Assembly: GCF_001693275.1 (NCBI RefSeq)
Contig: NZ_CP016477.1
Span: forward strand, 1,426,001-1,490,000
Origin: Picosynechococcus sp. PCC 7117
Lineage (GTDB): Bacteria > Cyanobacteriota > Cyanobacteriia > Cyanobacteriales > MRBY01
Length of the DNA stretch: 64,000 nt
Reading direction: 5' to 3'
Positions 24,760 to 33,935 of this stretch are shown piece after piece. The stretch's first letter is position 1, and every line of letters starts with the position of its first letter. The position numbers were made by a program, and so were the translations under genes. The notes under the pieces are model-generated. The model worked only from the letters and a program-made list of their open reading frames with translations, was not told where the DNA came from and made no database searches.

Positions 24760-25047
24760 GCTTACTGCTACCACGACAAATAAAGGACAAGCTCCCTTTG
24801 AGGATACAGAAGATGACGATCCTCTGTCTGGTTCAGATCAGACTTTAAAAAAATATCGATCTGTGTTATTTTGTTCGGAATATTTATTTGCTCTATAAAA
24901 TACCGTTTTTAATCTCTCTTCAGCATTCACAATTTTCCCCAATCTCCACAGCAACCCGGCGATCGCTGGTGCTGGGAAATACGAGGCCTTGGATTTTTCC
25001 CTGGCTTGTTTTATCTGTTAACTTCCACTAGGGATTTTTTGCTGAAC

Positions 25048-26661
25048 GTGACTACGACTCCACTCCAAAAACCGATTGACGCCACCAATACAGGCAATAG
25101 TCTTCAACGCCAAATCATCGTTATCTTAGATTTTGGCTCCCAATACTCTGAACTAATTGCCAGAAGAATTCGCGAAACGGAAGTTTACTCTGAGGTCATT
25201 TCCTATCGCACCAGCGCCGAACAATTGCGGCAACTTAATCCCAGCGGCATCATCCTCTCCGGTGGCCCCAGTTCTGTCTATGACGACTATGCCCCGGCCT
25301 GTGACCCTGAAATTTGGAATCTTGGGATTCCTGTCCTTGGGGTCTGCTACGGGATGCAGCTAATGGTGAAACAACTCGGCGGTACCGTCGAGCGCGCCAA
25401 GCACGCAGAGTATGGCAAAGCATCAATCTTTATCGATGATCCCACCGATCTGCTGACCAATGTGGAGGAAGGCTCCACCATGTGGATGAGCCACGGGGAC
25501 TCCTGTGTGCACCTGCCCGAAGGGTTTGAAATTTTAGCCCATACGGACAATACTCCTTGTGCGGCGATCGCCCACCATGGCCGCCAACTTTACGGGGTGC
25601 AGTTCCACCCAGAAGTGGTTCATTCCCAGGACGGTATGGCCCTGATCCGCAACTTTGTTTATCACATTTGTAAATGTGAACCCACCTGGACCACAGAAGC
25701 CTTCGTTGAAGAAGCAATTCGTGAGATCCGGGCCCGGGTCGGCGATCAACGGGTACTCCTCGCCCTTTCTGGAGGCGTTGATTCTTCTACCTTGGCCTTT
25801 TTGCTCCACCAAGCGATCGGCGATCAACTGACCTGTATGTTCATCGACCAAGGCTTTATGCGGAAAGGGGAACCGGAACGCCTTGTGGAAATCTTTGATG
25901 AGCAATTCCACATTCCCGTCGCCTATATCAACGCCCGCGATCGCTTTATCGACAAGCTCAAAGGGGTTACCGATCCCGAAGAAAAGCGACGCCTTATTGG
26001 CCACGAATTTATCGCCGTCTTCGAGGAAGAATCAAAACGCCTTGGCCCCTTTGATTACCTCGCCCAGGGGACTCTATATCCCGATGTAATCGAATCGGCG
26101 GATACCAACGTTGACCCCAAAACGGGAGAACGGGTCGCGGTCAAAATTAAAAGTCACCACAACGTCGGCGGTTTACCAGAAGATCTGCGCTTTAAATTGG
26201 TTGAACCCCTCCGCAAACTCTTCAAAGATGAAGTGCGTAAGGTAGCAGCCAGCATTGGTTTGCCCGAAGAAATTATTCGCCGTCACCCCTTCCCTGGCCC
26301 TGGCCTCGCGATTCGGATCATTGGCGAAGTCACCGCAGAACGGTTAAATATTCTCCGGGATGCAGACTGGGTTGTGCGGGATGAAATCAAAAAGCAAGGG
26401 GTTTACAGTGATTTTTGGCAAGCCTTTGCGGTCTTACTACCGATTCGTAGTGTGGGTGTGATGGGCGATAAGCGCACCTATGCTCACCCCGTCGTACTGC
26501 GGATGATTACCAGTGAAGATGGGATGACAGCGGATTGGGCTCGTCCCCCCTATGAGCTTTTGGAAACCATTTCTAATCGCATGGTGAATGAGGTGAAAGG
26601 GGTTAACCGCGTTGTCTATGACATCACTTCTAAGCCTCCTGGCACCATCGAGTGGGAGTAA
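25048..26661 (+). CDS. guaA: GMP synthase (glutamine-hydrolysing)
   Basis: Aminates XMP to GMP using ATP and glutamine. The likely start is the GTG at 25048 (537 residues); an in-frame start at 25006 adds 14 hydrophobic residues with no family support. The N-terminal class I glutamine amidotransferase has the nucleophile in LGVCYGMQL and the His/Glu of the triad in GVQFHPEV. The ATP-pyrophosphatase domain has the P-loop SGGVDSS, and the C-terminal dimerisation domain ends with KPPGTIEWE. All parts are full length. It is divergent from moaA and ends in a clear terminator. Confidence 0.95.
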
Positions 26662-26777: not shown

Positions 26778-28091
26778 TTAGGCGGCTCGTGGTAAAGAGA
26801 CGGAAAATGTTGTGCCTTGATCTTTGCTTGCAACGGCGATTTTGCCTTTATGGTTTTTGGCGATCGCCGCCGCAATGGCGAGACCCAGACCTGAACCAGT
26901 GCTACTTTCCCCAGGGTTTGTCCGGGCGGGATCAAGACGATAAAAACGGTCGAAAATATTGGTCAAATTTTCGGCAGGAATACCGATGCCATTATCTTTA
27001 ACCGTCACTTGGAGGGTTTCTCCGGTTGTCCGCCCTGTTTTCTCCTTGAGGGCCATGGTGACGGTAATTTGCTTGGGTTTGTCGCCCCAGTCCCCTGGAA
27101 AAGCATAGGCGATCGCATTGCCGATCAGATTTGTAAAGAGGCGCGCCATTTGATCCCAGTCTCCCAAGATGAGATAGGCTTCTTCGGTGGCATCCCCTTG
27201 AATATCCAACTGCAACTCAATTTTTTCCTGACGGCAGATGGCCCGTTGTTCTTCAATGACCTCCAGCAATAGAGCATCCAGGGGTAATTGTTCAAATTCC
27301 GCTTGAAGTACCCCACTATCACTGCGGGCGAGAAATAAGAGGTCATTCACTAAACGGCCCAACCGTTGGGTGAGTCGCTCGATCACCTTGAGATTTTGTT
27401 GGCGTTGGTCGGGATCTGGGTAGGCGATCGCCATTTGGACATTGGTTTGGATCATCGCAATGGGATTACGCAACTCGTGGGACGCATCCGCCGTAAATTG
27501 CCGCAATTGTTGATAGGAATCCTTGACCGGTTCGATGGCAATGCCAGACAGTAACCAGCCAATCACCGCCCCACAGGTAATCATGATTGCGATCCCCAGG
27601 CTGAGATCAAGGACTAATTTGCGAATCGGTCGCGTCACCTCAAACCAAGGATGGCTCACCCGTAGATAACCCAAAACATAGCGATCCACTTCGAGGCGAT
27701 CGGTAATTTGTCGCAGGAGATAATCATCACCCAGACGTACCGTTTCCCCCCGGGGGTGCCACTCTAGGGGCAAGACTAATGGTTCAGAAAAAGTAGACCA
27801 GAGCAATTCTCCGGCTGGGTTGAAAAATTCAAGGTCAATGCGGTCATCTTCGACGGTGGGGGACTGTTGCCGAAAACTGGCTTCTAAATTGATGTGATAG
27901 CCCACAGGATCATCTGGCTCAATGATCAGCGATCGCTCTACCACTTCCACCACATGCTTTAGGGTGTCATCGATTCGTTCAATCAGGGTATAGCGCACGT
28001 AAAAATAAACCCCCGTCGCGAAAACCAAAAGCAACACTGCGGTGATCGCCGTGTACCAGAGGGCCAGACGATTACGGGTGGTTTGAAACAT
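26778..28091 (-). CDS. Membrane sensor histidine kinase coupled to a PstS-like gene
   Basis: A 437-residue kinase with two membrane helices (about 10-32 and 159-182) that frame a periplasmic domain of about 125 residues. It then has the dimerisation helix with His205 in ASHELRNPIAM and a complete ATPase domain: N-box NLIGNAIAY, G1 DNGIGIPAE, G2 GSGLGLAIA. The domain layout is like that of the RppB/NrsS-type cyanobacterial sensors. No response regulator gene is adjacent. Its ATG overlaps the stop of the PstS-like gene by one base (TAATG), which indicates translational coupling and suggests the two products work together. Confidence 0.9.
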   Translation of the reverse strand: MFQTTRNRLALWYTAITAVLLLVFATGVYFYVRYTLIERIDDTLKHVVEVVERSLIIEPDDPVGYHINLEASFRQQSPTVEDDRIDLEFFNPAGELLWSTFSEPLVLPLEWHPRGETVRLGDDYLLRQITDRLEVDRYVLGYLRVSHPWFEVTRPIRKLVLDLSLGIAIMITCGAVIGWLLSGIAIEPVKDSYQQLRQFTADASHELRNPIAMIQTNVQMAIAYPDPDQRQQNLKVIERLTQRLGRLVNDLLFLARSDSGVLQAEFEQLPLDALLLEVIEEQRAICRQEKIELQLDIQGDATEEAYLILGDWDQMARLFTNLIGNAIAYAFPGDWGDKPKQITVTMALKEKTGRTTGETLQVTVKDNGIGIPAENLTNIFDRFYRLDPARTNPGESSTGSGLGLAIAAAIAKNHKGKIAVASKDQGTTFSVSLPRAA

Positions 28092-29020
28092 TACTGCTGC
28101 GCCGCTTGGATCAACTCTGCTCCCACAGGAGTCCCAACGAAACCAAGGAAAGCCTCCACCTGGGGGGAAGCAGGTTCTTGGTAGGCGTAATAAAGGGTGC
28201 GGGTGTAGGGATAGAGGTCTGATTCTGGGGTTACCCCATCAATGGGCACTGTTCTAACGGTTTGCTGATTGGCGATCTGGCTGTAGGTGGCATAACTGAT
28301 CCCGTCTGCGCCCAGGGTCTGCAAAATCGGCGTGGTAGCGTCCTGTTCCAGATTGGTGAAATTAGGGCCATTCCCGAAGTTTGAGCCGTTGAGTACCGTT
28401 TCTTGGAAAGTTTGGTAAGTACCACTCACTGGAGGGCGATTAATAACCCGAATTGTTCCCGTCGCTTTATCGGTAATCGCTGACCAATCGGTGAGATTCC
28501 CTTGGAAAATGCCCTGTACCTGTTCCCCAGTCAGCCCTGTACTAAAGGGATTTTCCTTGGCGACTACAATGGCGACGGCATCGATGGTAACGGCGATCGC
28601 CTTGAGACCCTGTTGCATTTCTTCCGGCTGGAGGGGGCGGGAGATCGCCGCGAGGTCAATATTTCCCGCCAGCAGATCTTCAAGTCCTTTACTCGACCCA
28701 TTAGCAGTTGTTTCAACACGGGTCTGGGGATATTGCAACTCGAACCGATTTTTTAGGGCGGTATTAATCTGCACCATACTGGTAGAGCCAGAAATTTTTA
28801 CCACCGTCCCTGGGGCCACTGTTGCCGGTGGACTGAAGGGATTATCTGTAGCTTGGGAACCTGGGGCGATCGCCCCATCATTAGTTCCCGTTTCTGCGCC
28901 ATTTGGGGCCAAACCCTGAAAGCCAGAACGATTTAAAAACCACCAACCACCGCCCCCCAGAATGCCTAGGGTAACGATGAGGGCCATCATTAGAGGCAAC
29001 GTATCATTTTTTTGGGCCAT
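28091..29020 (-). CDS. Membrane-anchored PstS-like substrate-binding protein
   Basis: A periplasmic binding protein of the PstS/SphX family (phosphate ABC transporter substrate-binding superfamily). With the ATG at 29020 it has 309 residues: one N-terminal membrane helix (about 8-28), a Gly/Ala/Pro-rich linker to about residue 70, then the binding domain with ISGSTSMVQI, TTANGSSKGL (a phosphate-loop type serine/glycine motif), AISRPLQPEEM and GTYQTFQETVL. ATGs at 29041 and 29101 are alternative starts. The helix lacks a lipobox and a clear cleavage site, so it may stay anchored. No pstCAB genes follow. Instead it is coupled to a sensor kinase, which suggests a sensing role rather than transport. 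The ligand is not proven. Confidence 0.85.
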   Translation of the reverse strand: MAQKNDTLPLMMALIVTLGILGGGGWWFLNRSGFQGLAPNGAETGTNDGAIAPGSQATDNPFSPPATVAPGTVVKISGSTSMVQINTALKNRFELQYPQTRVETTANGSSKGLEDLLAGNIDLAAISRPLQPEEMQQGLKAIAVTIDAVAIVVAKENPFSTGLTGEQVQGIFQGNLTDWSAITDKATGTIRVINRPPVSGTYQTFQETVLNGSNFGNGPNFTNLEQDATTPILQTLGADGISYATYSQIANQQTVRTVPIDGVTPESDLYPYTRTLYYAYQEPASPQVEAFLGFVGTPVGAELIQAAQQ

Positions 29021-29118: not shown

Positions 29119-29817
29119 TTAATTATTATTCGGCACGGGGCGGAACGGATAAAGGAAATTCAACAGGGGGAAAAGATTCCGCGATTGTACCCAGAGCTTA
29201 CCCTTGCCACTGAAACGACAAACTAAGCCTTCTCCGCCGAGAATCCCTGTGCGCAGGCTCCGGAAAGATAAACCCCCAATCATTTCCACGTTGTATTGCA
29301 GCGTATCCTCAAAGGCGACAATGTAGCCCGTATCCACCACATAATCCCCCTCTACAGGAATTTCAATGATCGCCCCGTAGGAACTAAACCAAAAATCCCC
29401 TTGGCCCGATGCCCGCAGGAAAAAGATCGATTCCCCCGTAAAGAAACCCTTCAGCCCCTGGAATTTGGTGTCAAGATCCACCGAGGGACTAGAAGCCACA
29501 AAGCCCGAAGACTGCACCATTAAACTTTTAGAACCATCCAAATGGTAGTAGGTCACATCCCCCGGCACCCCTGGCGAGATATAGAGTTCCCCGGCAGTAT
29601 TTCTAGCAGTAAATTCACTGATAAATAGGGATTCTCCACTGAACATCCGCCCGATGCCCTTCATCAAGCCCCCCCGCATCTTCGACTTCATCTCAATGTT
29701 GGCATCCATTGCCGCCATCGCCCCCGCCTCCACAAGCAGGGTTTGGTTGGGCGGTAAGGTCACAATGAGCGAGGCATAGGAGGGATTATTTTCAACGCGA
29801 AATTCAAACTGAGACAT
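29119..29817 (-). CDS. AIM24 / TIGR00266 family protein, copy 1
   Basis: A 232-residue beta-rich protein of the AIM24 family, whose bacterial members have no firmly known function; the yeast namesake is mitochondrial. It begins MSQFEFRVENNPSYASLIV and shows the family blocks LLVEAGAMAAMD, GESLFISEFTA, GDYVVDTGYIVAFE and GGEGLVCRF. There is no signal peptide or membrane span. It is the last of three adjacent paralogues on this strand, 39 nt after copy 2. A 98-nt gap separates it from the PstS-like gene, so all five genes could share a transcript. Confidence 0.88.
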   Translation of the reverse strand: MSQFEFRVENNPSYASLIVTLPPNQTLLVEAGAMAAMDANIEMKSKMRGGLMKGIGRMFSGESLFISEFTARNTAGELYISPGVPGDVTYYHLDGSKSLMVQSSGFVASSPSVDLDTKFQGLKGFFTGESIFFLRASGQGDFWFSSYGAIIEIPVEGDYVVDTGYIVAFEDTLQYNVEMIGGLSFRSLRTGILGGEGLVCRFSGKGKLWVQSRNLFPLLNFLYPFRPVPNNN

Positions 29818-29856
29818 AATTTTTAAGCACTTTCAGCACTGGCTTCAAAGGACAAC

Positions 29857-30534
29857 TTAACGGGGTGGTAATTGGGAACCAACCAGGGAACCAAAGGCTC
29901 CGGGATTGTGGGTTTGGCAGTACAGTTTGCCCTTACCTCGGAAGCGACAGACTAACCCTTCTCCGCCGAGGAATGCCCCAATCCAAGAGGGATTTGCTTT
30001 ACCCACGGTGAAGCTCAGGCTCTTTTCAAAGGCAACGATATGGCCTGTATCCACGACATATTCGCCATCCACATCCACTTCGTAAATGGCCCCAAAGGAC
30101 GTCACCAGCAAAGGCCCTTGGCCACTGATGCTGAGCCAAAAAATAGATTCACCTGAAAAGAAGGATTTAAAGCCTTGCCAACCGAGATCAATGTCCACAT
30201 TGGGGCCAGAGGCAAGGTAGGAAGAGGCTTGGACAACAAATTCATCGCCCCACATTTCGTACAGGAGAAGATCCCCCATCAGCTTGGGGGCAAACCAAAT
30301 TTCACTATTGGGTAAAGGCGCCCGAAAAACGCTCAGAAAGAGGGATTCTCCGGCAAGCATCCGTTTTAGCCCTCCCATGATGCCGCCCCCTTTGCCTTTG
30401 CGGAGGGTCGTGCTGGCATTGATATTGCCGCTCATGGCAACCATGGCACCGGCTTGGGCAATGATTTCTTCCCCAGCGTCGAGGGTGACATGGGCGATCG
30501 CATTATCTGGTTGATGTAAGAGTTTAATTTCCAT
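29857..30534 (-). CDS. AIM24 / TIGR00266 family protein, copy 2
   Basis: A 225-residue paralogue of the neighbouring AIM24 proteins: MEIKLLHQPDNAIAHVTL start, IIAQAGAMVAMSGNI, GESLFLSVFRA, GEYVVDTGHIVAFE and GGEGLVCRFRGKGKLY. Compared with copy 1 it has a glycine-rich insertion KGKGGGIMGGLKRM before the GESLF block. It starts 9 nt after the stop of copy 3, so the two are almost certainly cotranscribed. Function unknown. Confidence 0.88.
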   Translation of the reverse strand: MEIKLLHQPDNAIAHVTLDAGEEIIAQAGAMVAMSGNINASTTLRKGKGGGIMGGLKRMLAGESLFLSVFRAPLPNSEIWFAPKLMGDLLLYEMWGDEFVVQASSYLASGPNVDIDLGWQGFKSFFSGESIFWLSISGQGPLLVTSFGAIYEVDVDGEYVVDTGHIVAFEKSLSFTVGKANPSWIGAFLGGEGLVCRFRGKGKLYCQTHNPGAFGSLVGSQLPPR

Positions 30535-30543
30535 AGCTACCCC

Positions 30544-31206
30544 CTAACGACATTTTGGACGTAAAAAGCCCACAAGACCTGACACACTCCGCGATTGGAG
30601 GTAGATTCGGCCACGGCCTTTGAGTTTATTCACCAGACCTTCGCCAGAGGTGAGGGAACCAAATAAGCCCCCAGACATCCGGATATTCATGGTGATGCCC
30701 GGATCGTAGGCAACGAGGTGGCTGTTATCGACGATAAATTCCCCCGCGATTTGTCTTTCGATGATGCCGCCATAGCACCCGTAAAAGACCCGGCCACTAC
30801 CTGTGAATTGCAGTTTAAAGAGACCTTCCCCCGCGAACCAACTGGCAAAACCAGCCCAACGGATTCCCATTTTTGCGCCGGGGGTATGGGCAATGTAAGC
30901 ACCGGGCTGAAAACAGATCGGCCCTTGGGACAAATCAATGCGGTGGATATCACCCACCATTGACTGGGTTAAAATGACGGTCTGGGGCCGCTGACTTGTG
31001 TTGCGATAAACATTCACAAACAGGGATTCTCCCCCAAATAACCGACGGAGAATCGCCGGGAAAAATCCCCCCGAAAATTCAGTTTTCATTGAGATTCCAG
31101 CATCCATGCTGACCATTGCACCGGATTCGGCTGTGACCTGTTCGCCGGGTTCGAGGGTGACAAATAGACAAGCAAAGGCGGGTTTATAGCGGATTTCGTA
31201 TTTCAC
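30544..31206 (-). CDS. AIM24 / TIGR00266 family protein, copy 3
   Basis: First gene of the AIM24 block. I choose a GTG start at 31206 (220 residues, VKYEIRYKPAFACLFVTL), because it aligns with the starts of the two paralogues; an in-frame ATG at 31251 adds 15 residues with no counterpart. Family blocks: VTAESGAMVSMDAGI, GESLFVNVYRN, GEFIVDNSHLVAYD and SGEGLVNKLKGRGRIY. It is the most diverged of the three: the cysteine of GEGLVCRF is replaced (GEGLVNKL), and VDTGHIVAFE reads VDNSHLVAYD. It is divergent from the DUF2605 gene. Confidence 0.85.
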   Translation of the reverse strand: MKYEIRYKPAFACLFVTLEPGEQVTAESGAMVSMDAGISMKTEFSGGFFPAILRRLFGGESLFVNVYRNTSQRPQTVILTQSMVGDIHRIDLSQGPICFQPGAYIAHTPGAKMGIRWAGFASWFAGEGLFKLQFTGSGRVFYGCYGGIIERQIAGEFIVDNSHLVAYDPGITMNIRMSGGLFGSLTSGEGLVNKLKGRGRIYLQSRSVSGLVGFLRPKCR

Positions 31207-31397
31207 CGTGACTCTACCTGATAAGAGTTTGAATAAACTAGCCCAATACAAGCTAATTCCCCTTATTTTTAGCAGGGCAATGGAAGTGAAGAAATGTTTG
31301 TTAAGGTTGCTTAATATTCAAGGAAATCATCCTCGACAGCGGCGATCGTCTCAAAATGTTAAGATATGTAAAGAAAGTCTCATTTTCAAAAATATCT

Positions 31398-31763: not shown

Positions 31764-32363
31764 ATGCCTGTGACGTTTGAATTGGCTCCTTGGCGATCGC
31801 CCCTAGCCCGGGCCTTACACCGGAATAAAAGTCAGCCCCACCACCGCTTTTTTCAGTTGGCCACCGTAACGCCGACGGGAAAACCCAGGAGTCGCACGGT
31901 GGTTTTTCGGGGGTTCCTCGAAGGAAGCAATGACCTCAAAATTATTACGGATCAGCGCAGTGAAAAAATCAACCACCTCGCTACTTGCCCCGATGCCGAA
32001 ATTGCTTGGTATTTCACCAAAACCCGGGAACAATTCCGCTTTAGTGGTCAGATTAAGCTGGTTACAGCAGCAGCAAGTCCGCCATCACCACTTAATCGCG
32101 CTAGACAGCAGACCTGGCAAGCCCTTTCGGATACGGCCCGGGCTCAATTTCTCTGGCCCCAGCCTGGCGATCGCCGCAGCGAAAATTCAGCTGATTTCCA
32201 GCCAACCGCAGTGAATGATCAAGAGCCTGTTTCTAATTTCGTGCTTCTCCTGTTTCAGGTGACAAAGGTCGATCACCTCGAACTGCGGGGCAATCCCCAA
32301 AATCGCTTTTTGTATGACCTCACAGCCGACGGTACTTGGCAGCAAAAAACAGTTAATCCCTAG
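31764..32363 (+). CDS. Pyridoxamine 5'-phosphate oxidase-like FMN flavoprotein (Npun_F5749 type)
   Basis: A 199-residue split-barrel flavoprotein. It shows FFQLATVTPTGKPRSRTVVFRGF at the N-terminus, the FMN phosphate-contacting RSEKINHL, AWYFTKTREQFRFSG in the central strands, and the conserved ARAQFLWPQPG. This combination is the cyanobacterial and plant pyridoxamine-oxidase-like subgroup (Npun_F5749 type), not PdxH itself, whose C-terminal motif is missing. The natural substrate is not known to me. Its 3' end overlaps the convergent ModA-like gene by 11 bp. Confidence 0.85.
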   Translation: MPVTFELAPWRSPLARALHRNKSQPHHRFFQLATVTPTGKPRSRTVVFRGFLEGSNDLKIITDQRSEKINHLATCPDAEIAWYFTKTREQFRFSGQIKLVTAAASPPSPLNRARQQTWQALSDTARAQFLWPQPGDRRSENSADFQPTAVNDQEPVSNFVLLLFQVTKVDHLELRGNPQNRFLYDLTADGTWQQKTVNP

Positions 32364-33144
32364 GGGGCAGAAAGCCATATTTTTGTAAAATGGCCTGACC
32401 TTTTTGACCCAGAATAAAATCGATAAAAAGTTGCCCTTGGGTTTGCTTGGGTGAGACTTTAATTGGGGCGATCGCATATAAAATTGACCCTGTTAATTCC
32501 GGCGCAAAAGATTCAATCACTCGCAAATTAGGTTGCTGGAAAATATCTGTTTGGTAGACAAACCCCGCCGTTGCCGATTGATTTTGGACATAGGTTAAAA
32601 CTTGCCGCACGTTCTCCCCAAAAACTAATTTTTGGGACTGATCTAGGGTTTGGTAAAGCTGGGGATATTTTTCTAAAAGATTGGCGGCATATCGTCCCGC
32701 TGGTACTGTTTTTGGATTACCCAGGGCAATTTTTTTAACATCCTCACCCGCTAAATCTTCCAAACGATTCAGTTGCGGTTGGCTTTGGTAATTTTGAATC
32801 AGAACGAGTTGATTTTCCGCAAAAATTTGGACTGCCTCTGCTGCGACAAACCCTTTTTGGGCCAAGGATTCAACGGGTTCCAAGGCCGCACTAGCAAAAA
32901 TGTCAATGGGAGCTTGTTGCTCGATTTGCCTTTGCAACGTCCCGGAAGCAGCGGTATTAAATTGAATTGAAATGTCTGGATACTGTGTTTGAAACTCGGT
33001 ACGAATCTCTGCCATGACATCGGTCAAGGAAGCGGCGATCGCCACCACTAAAGTTTGCCCAGAATTACCAAAAGTACAACCATGTAGACTGATAACAAGG
33101 GCAATGCTTAGACCCCAAACAAAATGTGGCAGTTTGAATTTCAT
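32353..33144 (-). CDS. ModA-like substrate-binding lipoprotein
   Basis: A 263-residue binding protein of the molybdate/tungstate ModA superfamily. The signal peptide ends in a lipobox (ISLHGC, Cys23), so it should be lipid-anchored outside the cytoplasmic membrane. The mature part has the ModA blocks VAIAASLTDVMAEIR, FNTAASGTLQRQI, PIDIFASA, and a C-terminal GQAILQKYGFLPP that is typical of ModA. No modB or modC follows. Its ATG overlaps the stop of the upstream MlaE-type permease (ATGA), so the two are translationally coupled. Molybdate is the first guess for the ligand, but the context does not support it strongly. Confidence 0.87.
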   Translation of the reverse strand: MKFKLPHFVWGLSIALVISLHGCTFGNSGQTLVVAIAASLTDVMAEIRTEFQTQYPDISIQFNTAASGTLQRQIEQQAPIDIFASAALEPVESLAQKGFVAAEAVQIFAENQLVLIQNYQSQPQLNRLEDLAGEDVKKIALGNPKTVPAGRYAANLLEKYPQLYQTLDQSQKLVFGENVRQVLTYVQNQSATAGFVYQTDIFQQPNLRVIESFAPELTGSILYAIAPIKVSPKQTQGQLFIDFILGQKGQAILQKYGFLPPRD

Positions 33145-33935
33145 CCCACTAAGGCACTACCTAAACCTTGGAACATCAACCAAGATAGGAAAAAGTTAGC
33201 AATAAAAATCGCTAATAGGGATGTAACAACAGCCGTTGTTGTCGATTGTCCTACGCCCTTGGCTCCCCCAGTTGTTGTCAAGCCCCAACTGCAGCCAATG
33301 ACGGCAATTAAGCCCCCAAAAACAACAGATTTAATCATTGCACTGATAATGTCCCAATATTCTAAAAAACTCTGGGCCGAGTTGATAAAAATTGACTGGG
33401 GAATTTGATATAAATTTATGGCGATGATTAACCCGCCAGCCATCCCCGTGAGGAGCGATAAAACAGTCAATAAAGGCAACATCAAACAGCAGGCCAAGAA
33501 GCGGGGGACGACCAAATAATCAATGGGATCTGTGCGTAAAATATGCAACGCATCGATTTGTTCAGTGACGCGCATGGTGCCAATCTCCGCTGCAAAGGCC
33601 GAGCCGACACGCCCCGCCAAGACCACCGCCGTTAATACAGGGGCTAATTCCCGGGACAAGGAAAGACCCAAAACGCCCCCCACCGCCGTGCCTGCGCCGA
33701 AGTAAATAAATTCCCGCGCCACCTGGATGGTAAATACCATGCCGACAAACCCAGCCGTGACTAGGGCAATGAGGAGGGAATCAGGCCCCACCGCCGCCAT
33801 CTGTTCAATGGTAATGCGTCGGTTGAAACGCCCCCGCAGGAGATGTACGATGACTTGCCCCCCTAGAAGGGTTGCGGCAACTAACCGCTCAAACCATTTC
33901 CCAAGGGAACTTTTTGATCTGCGTTGGCTGGTCAT
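33141..33935 (-). CDS. MlaE-family ABC transporter permease
   Basis: A 264-residue permease with about five or six membrane helices, homologous to MlaE, to TGD1 of chloroplasts and to Synechocystis Slr1045, which act in lipid transport between membranes. Family blocks: MVFTIQVAREF, LSRELAPVLTAVVLAGRVGSAFAAEIGTMRVTEQIDAL, and GGAKGVGQSTTTAVV at the C-terminal side. The ATPase (MlaF) and the MCE-domain protein (MlaD) are not in the window. It lies 95 nt downstream of pilJ. From memory, slr1045 follows the pil chemotaxis genes in Synechocystis too, so the linkage may be conserved. Confidence 0.92.
   Translation of the reverse strand: MTSQRRSKSSLGKWFERLVAATLLGGQVIVHLLRGRFNRRITIEQMAAVGPDSLLIALVTAGFVGMVFTIQVAREFIYFGAGTAVGGVLGLSLSRELAPVLTAVVLAGRVGSAFAAEIGTMRVTEQIDALHILRTDPIDYLVVPRFLACCLMLPLLTVLSLLTGMAGGLIIAINLYQIPQSIFINSAQSFLEYWDIISAMIKSVVFGGLIAVIGCSWGLTTTGGAKGVGQSTTTAVVTSLLAIFIANFFLSWLMFQGLGSALVG

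Follow-up and report, generated by a model that had tools for sequence, protein, structure and literature searches.

A periplasmic binding protein can present its ligand to the periplasmic domain of a sensor kinase, as in LuxP/LuxQ, where the binding protein belongs to a different class from the one described here and the partnership is fixed; the partnership reported below is confined to one genus. PMC5908839 names LuxP as a signalling binding protein and describes oxyanion-binding periplasmic proteins encoded with a sensor kinase and having a signalling role (AioX/AioS, ArxX and ArrX). These are the closest parallels to a PstS-like gene that adjoins a histidine kinase gene, yet AioX is PhnD-like, unlike the PstS-like protein here. 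PMC6011840 places the binding protein, kinase and response regulator of this system in one cluster, aioXSR, whereas the search around our locus turned up no regulator, and other genomes have the kinase without the binding protein. Taken singly, the two proteins resemble other systems. The binding protein shares its fold and pocket-type sequence stretches with PstS and SphX of pstSCAB operons, but it is anchored, and neither an adjacent permease or ATPase gene nor a Pho-box-like site was found. Its best match in both sequence and structure is Sll0540 of Synechocystis sp. PCC 6803. PMC11221513 enters sll0540 as homologous to PstS in its table on the iron-linked regulator IutR, and PMC3610870 calls a sll0540-like gene of Nodularia a potential high-affinity periplasmic Pi-binding protein. 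The kinase has its best NCBIfam model among the RppB/NrsS-type kinases, but scores under the family cut-off and has no regulator gene nearby.

The gene pair and its products

The pair lies in a window of 64,000 nucleotides, the whole stretch of DNA that we analysed, with the binding-protein gene preceding the kinase gene on the minus strand. Its features are as follows.

25006 to 26661: guaA (GMP synthase), converging on the pair from the kinase side
26778 to 28091, minus strand: sensor histidine kinase, 437 amino acids (PF00512, E = 7.5e-18; PF02518, E = 1e-23)
27477 to 27479, minus strand: codon of the presumed phospho-acceptor His205 (DASHELR), invariant in 25 aligned kinases; HisKA match at residues 196-260
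27618 to 27995, minus strand: periplasmic sensor region of the kinase, residues 33-158, between the hydrophobic segments and conserved in the alignment
28089 to 28093, minus strand: TAATG stop/start overlap, read in the sequence (junction CAGTAATGTTT, one shared base)
28091 to 29020, minus strand: PstS-like, Sll0540-type binding protein, 309 amino acids, ORF from the ATG at 29018-29020 (PF12849, E = 4.9e-33)
28094 to 28819, minus strand: bilobed binding domain, residues 68-309 (conserved STSM, SRP, NR and SGT; 4gd5 alignment)
28820 to 28933, minus strand: variable linker, residues 30-67 (pLDDT below 50 at 31-56; poorly conserved in the alignment)
28934 to 29002, minus strand: N-terminal hydrophobic anchor, residues 7-29 (hydropathy; model helix 7-29, modest confidence)
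29119 to 31251, minus strand: three AIM24 genes upstream of the pair (PF01987 in all three)

The original prediction had the stop of the PstS-like gene and the ATG of the kinase sharing one base, and this is what the sequence holds. The exact overlap is not conserved: among the five known pairs it occurs in this strain and in G002, while the junction is a 2-nt gap in G003 and a 34-nt gap in G004 and G005. Short gene overlaps are not rare in the window (crude gene calling gave 26 pairs of neighbouring ORFs on the same strand, 2 of them overlapping in this way), and translational coupling is therefore something that we infer from the spacing. Scanning the pair for promoters and terminators gave no more sites than in shuffled sequence.

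The N-terminal anchor and linker predicted for the binding protein are borne out by a hydropathy segment at about residues 7-29 that coincides with the model helix; read by eye, the anchor lacks cysteine and shows no clear cleavage motif. The protein scores 115.5 bits against the PBP_like_2 profile (PF12849, cut-off 27) and 122.6 bits against the PstS model TIGR02136 (NCBIfam), which is below the cut-off of 206.6. The best solved match is 9L8J, the structure of Sll0540 (phmmer E = 4.5e-73), with 50-51% identity over the binding domain; Foldseek superposes the two with a Z of 32.1 and an rmsd of 2.1 over 241 aligned residues, the bilobed fold of periplasmic binding proteins, and the next phosphate-binding proteins follow at Z 26.5 and 25.1. 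Given this top similarity among solved structures, in a one-way comparison, and an anchored single-domain layout, we assign the protein on sequence grounds as an ortholog of Sll0540; a copy from the genus Synechocystis (L089) is 50% identical in the alignment. In an alignment of 21 relatives the anion-pocket type stretches STSM, SRP, NR and SGT stand out as strongly conserved, and one divergent copy (L095:5548-6450) is missing several of them. They align with 4gd5, which was solved with bound phosphate, and we presume by analogy with PstS that they hold the phosphate-binding residues. The best 50 structure matches contain no AioX or PhnD entry, a result that excludes nothing.

Hydropathy places two membrane segments in the kinase, near residues 10-32 and 159-183, and the roughly 126 residues between them agree with the periplasmic domain of about 125 that had been proposed. 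The Pfam scan matched HisKA and HATPase_c and no HAMP, and the N-terminal 194 residues are matched in 39 of 40 relatives. RppB, the best NCBIfam model, scores 267.2 bits, below its equivalog cut-off of 400. Identity with SphS or PhoR was considered and set aside, because the best PhoR model reaches 144.6 of the required 334 bits, far under the cut-off, and SphS has, to our knowledge, no periplasmic domain like that of this kinase. For the Synechocystis name of the kinase we take hik11 and hik26 to be leads, and its gene neighbours did not settle the naming. PMC3264485 reports that hik2, hik11 and hik26 segregated incompletely. The structure model has a mean pLDDT of 71, is weak in the sensor region and draws Foldseek matches mostly to catalytic cores, so we make no claim for the fold of the sensor. 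A BLAST search started from a single regulator (E <= 1e-4) found no receiver gene within three genes of the kinase, either here or in the four paired relatives; among 25 loci there was one such gene, for a REC-GGDEF protein. We therefore class the kinase as a conserved orphan.

The prediction that no pstCAB genes lie near the pair also held. The neighbours of the binding-protein gene are AIM24, the kinase and guaA rather than pstC, pstA or pstB, and the pstS of this genome, to which the binding protein is 29% identical, lies about 0.93 Mb away at C1:2384809, beside a gene that we named pstC-like by eye. A tblastn search of the window with the PstC and PstS of this genome gave no match at E <= 0.01, a weak test for distant PstS in that it missed the PstS-like gene as well. 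For Synechococcus sp. PCC 7002, which we take to be of the same genus (Picosynechococcus) as this strain, PMC11358556 assigns A2284-A2286 to PstS, PstC and a permease. Scanned with a crude consensus against mononucleotide shuffles, the region in front of the binding-protein gene reaches a best Pho-box score of 16 out of 24, equal to the mode of the shuffles, compared with 20 for the pstS of this genome; the lack of a Pho-box-like signal is a weak argument against placing the gene in the Pho regulon.

Other binding-protein genes occur in the window and genome. At window positions 32353-33935, a lone SBP_bac_11 (ModA-like) gene has a 4-base overlap with an MlaE-type permease gene, and no modBC was found among the ORFs inspected beside it. 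A second anchored binding protein of this genome, Peripla_BP_6 (L003:199-1599), and the PstS-like one have nearly the same anchor (51% over 39 residues).

Distribution and history of the pair

The sensor region of the kinase is matched in 248 of 291 genomes of the class, usually in one good copy, and at least 15 of the 43 genomes with no match belong to a single family (f34), as counted among 20 of the 43. The search with the binding protein matched 174 of the 291, with about 150 rows listed. From the listed matches to single-domain binding proteins we took 91 genomes by hand, leaving out long fusion ORFs, a weaker paralog type of about 345-370 residues and the 399- and 400-residue ORFs of G300 and G284; 86 genomes had positions for both genes, since G097, G121, G138 and G170 had no kinase match and the kinase match in G145 came without a position. 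The two genes are adjacent in 5 of the 86, namely this genome and G002 to G005, all of one genus. In the other 81 they are apart among the matches listed, with the proviso that in draft genomes they are often on different contigs, so that a pair broken at a contig boundary would go unseen; where unpaired genomes have both genes on one contig, the nearest distance among the matches listed is 105 kb. Distant matches on 16 plasmid records were set aside. The pair is thus not a peculiarity of this strain, as it recurs in four further species of the genus, but its conservation across cyanobacteria is not supported.

Within the genus, the two genes are co-directional neighbours in five of six genomes, this one included, so the pair is operon-like and its adjacency is beyond chance. 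The AIM24 trio is the constant upstream context in all five and is also found in the sixth genome, G001, which has no pair. The pair and its order persist on both sides of the genus, in this strain and G002 and in G003 to G005, although the genes beyond it differ, which may point to a degree of selection on keeping the two together. Identity of the kinase sensor region to that of this strain is 97.6% in the paired G002, 90.5% in the unpaired G001 and 78.6-84.9% in the paired G003 to G005; it tracks kinship, not pairing.

G001 has kept the kinase (89.5% identical overall) away from the binding-protein context, adjoining a gene that we take to be IspF-like. It has no match to the binding protein at E <= 1e-20, and behind its intact AIM24 cluster lie other genes, among which no remnant of the binding-protein gene was found. 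In the kinase tree G001 groups with this strain and G002 (100/99, with a bootstrap that had not quite converged), and in theirs the binding proteins of the five pairs cluster together (100/99); therefore, judging from these trees, the paired state is probably older than the division of the genus and was later lost in G001. A separate origin of the pairing on each side of the genus would be a less simple history.

The binding-protein gene has other company elsewhere. We compared 85 copies (identity at least 38%, length below 400, our window excluded), a set that was not de-duplicated and in which, judging by their lengths, two or more contigs (from G038 and G011) are counted twice. A PspA/IM30-like gene lies directly upstream in 38 of them, an assignment made by BLAST to one gene that had been scanned as PF04012 (E = 6.2e-11). 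A plsC-type acyltransferase gene lies directly downstream in 16, fabD is within three genes in 16, and the kinase is directly downstream in four, all of our own genus. The recurring block, seen in L088, L141, L144, L146, L149 and others, runs fabH-fabD (in some with plsX), PspA/IM30-like gene, binding protein and often plsC, where fabD, fabH and plsX are what we presume these neighbours to be. No kinase is seen beside the Sll0540 ortholog in two Synechocystis neighbourhoods, L150 (Synechocystis salina) and L089 of G012, whereas here one adjoins; G012 is placed in the same genus as G280, whose kinase position equals that of the L150 genome. These PspA, plsC and fabD neighbours lead us to favour an envelope- or phospholipid-linked role of the binding protein over a role with a transporter or with the kinase. 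In this genome the PspA-like protein has a distant match alone (25%, E = 1.1e-5). Within the titles and abstract openings searched, which cover few subscription papers and have bioRxiv outside their scope, we found no description of the pair or of the PspA link.

Kinases of other kinds also occur in these neighbourhoods. Ser/Thr kinase genes lie within three genes of the binding protein on the same strand in seven of the 85 copies and on the other strand in one; a different histidine kinase, 25% identical, is two genes downstream in L135, and in L168 another lies within three genes on the opposite strand. A second PBP_like_2 paralog directly precedes the PstS-like gene in 5 of the 85 copies (loci L081:5323-6342, L083:1234-2292, L085 and L120, with a short match in L082), and such a paralog separates the AIM24 genes from the pair in G004 and, in the form of a 164-residue ORF, in G003. 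L026, L027 and L028 hold long proteins whose N-terminal PBP domain is of the same family as the PstS-like protein, and L098:3626-6667 (the same gene in L024) encodes a long protein in which an N-terminal PBP domain is followed by two DUF4912 matches.

What the pair may do

The original prediction saw in the two genes a receptor in which the anchored binding protein presents a ligand to the kinase. The part of that proposal which stands is an operon-like pair in five of six genomes of the genus with no adjacent transporter genes; conservation across cyanobacteria is not supported. Genuine as the pairing is, it probably does not form a dedicated two-part receptor, because in the other cyanobacteria examined the kinase occurs without this neighbour. 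In its strictest form, with a kinase unable to work without the binding protein, such a receptor seems to us highly improbable: the two genes do overlap, but the kinase is conserved without its partner in one member of the genus and is distant from it across the class, so obligate partnership does not fit. We lean instead, with some confidence, towards a lineage-specific operon of two envelope proteins that work independently in other cyanobacteria. The two genes would have been brought together in an ancestor of the genus and would be co-transcribed. The kinase would sense its signal alone, with its own periplasmic domain, and phosphorylate a response regulator encoded elsewhere, and the binding protein would bind, on the outward side of the membrane, an anion that is probably phosphate. 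Adjacency would then give shared expression, not obligatory ligand presentation.

It is possible, though we hold it to be rather unlikely, that the pair is a genus-specific accessory receptor, in which the loaded, tethered binding protein touches and tunes the sensor of a kinase that is able to sense alone. The adjacency in five of six genomes on both sides of the genus, the predicted tethering of the binding protein to the same membrane as the kinase and the existence of oxyanion receptors built from a binding protein and a kinase (PMC5908839) are all consistent with this; however, G001 retains the kinase with no binding protein, the two genes lie apart in the remaining 81 genomes compared, no sign of sensor change is seen in paired genomes, and there is no response regulator gene nearby, unlike aioXSR. 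Less probable again, and in our view quite doubtful, is that the binding protein is a dispersed subunit feeding the distant PstCAB, as an additional binding subunit of the kind that SphX is stated to be in PMC1906773. Such a role would suit the PstS fold with its phosphate-type pocket stretches, the pstS and pstC-like genes elsewhere in the genome and the potential function given to the Nodularia gene (PMC3610870), but it sits poorly with an anchor that, as we read the sequence, has no evident cleavage motif, with the low identity to the PstS of this genome and with the lack of a Pho-box-like site upstream.

As a lineage-specific operon, the pair gives no evidence for a dedicated PstS-kinase receptor across cyanobacteria. 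The gene overlap has become a bounded question, as the kinase is widespread without the binding protein and the genus contains strains with and without the pair. The link of the binding protein with PspA/IM30-like and phospholipid-synthesis genes is commoner than the kinase pair and apparently undescribed. We raise, tentatively and as the less likely course of events, that in this young lineage a stand-alone kinase captured a tethered PstS-like protein and gained an input for phosphate or another oxyanion, a receptor early in its making. If this is true, the kinase-only sister strain, G001, would be a natural control for a binding-protein-kinase receptor in the making.
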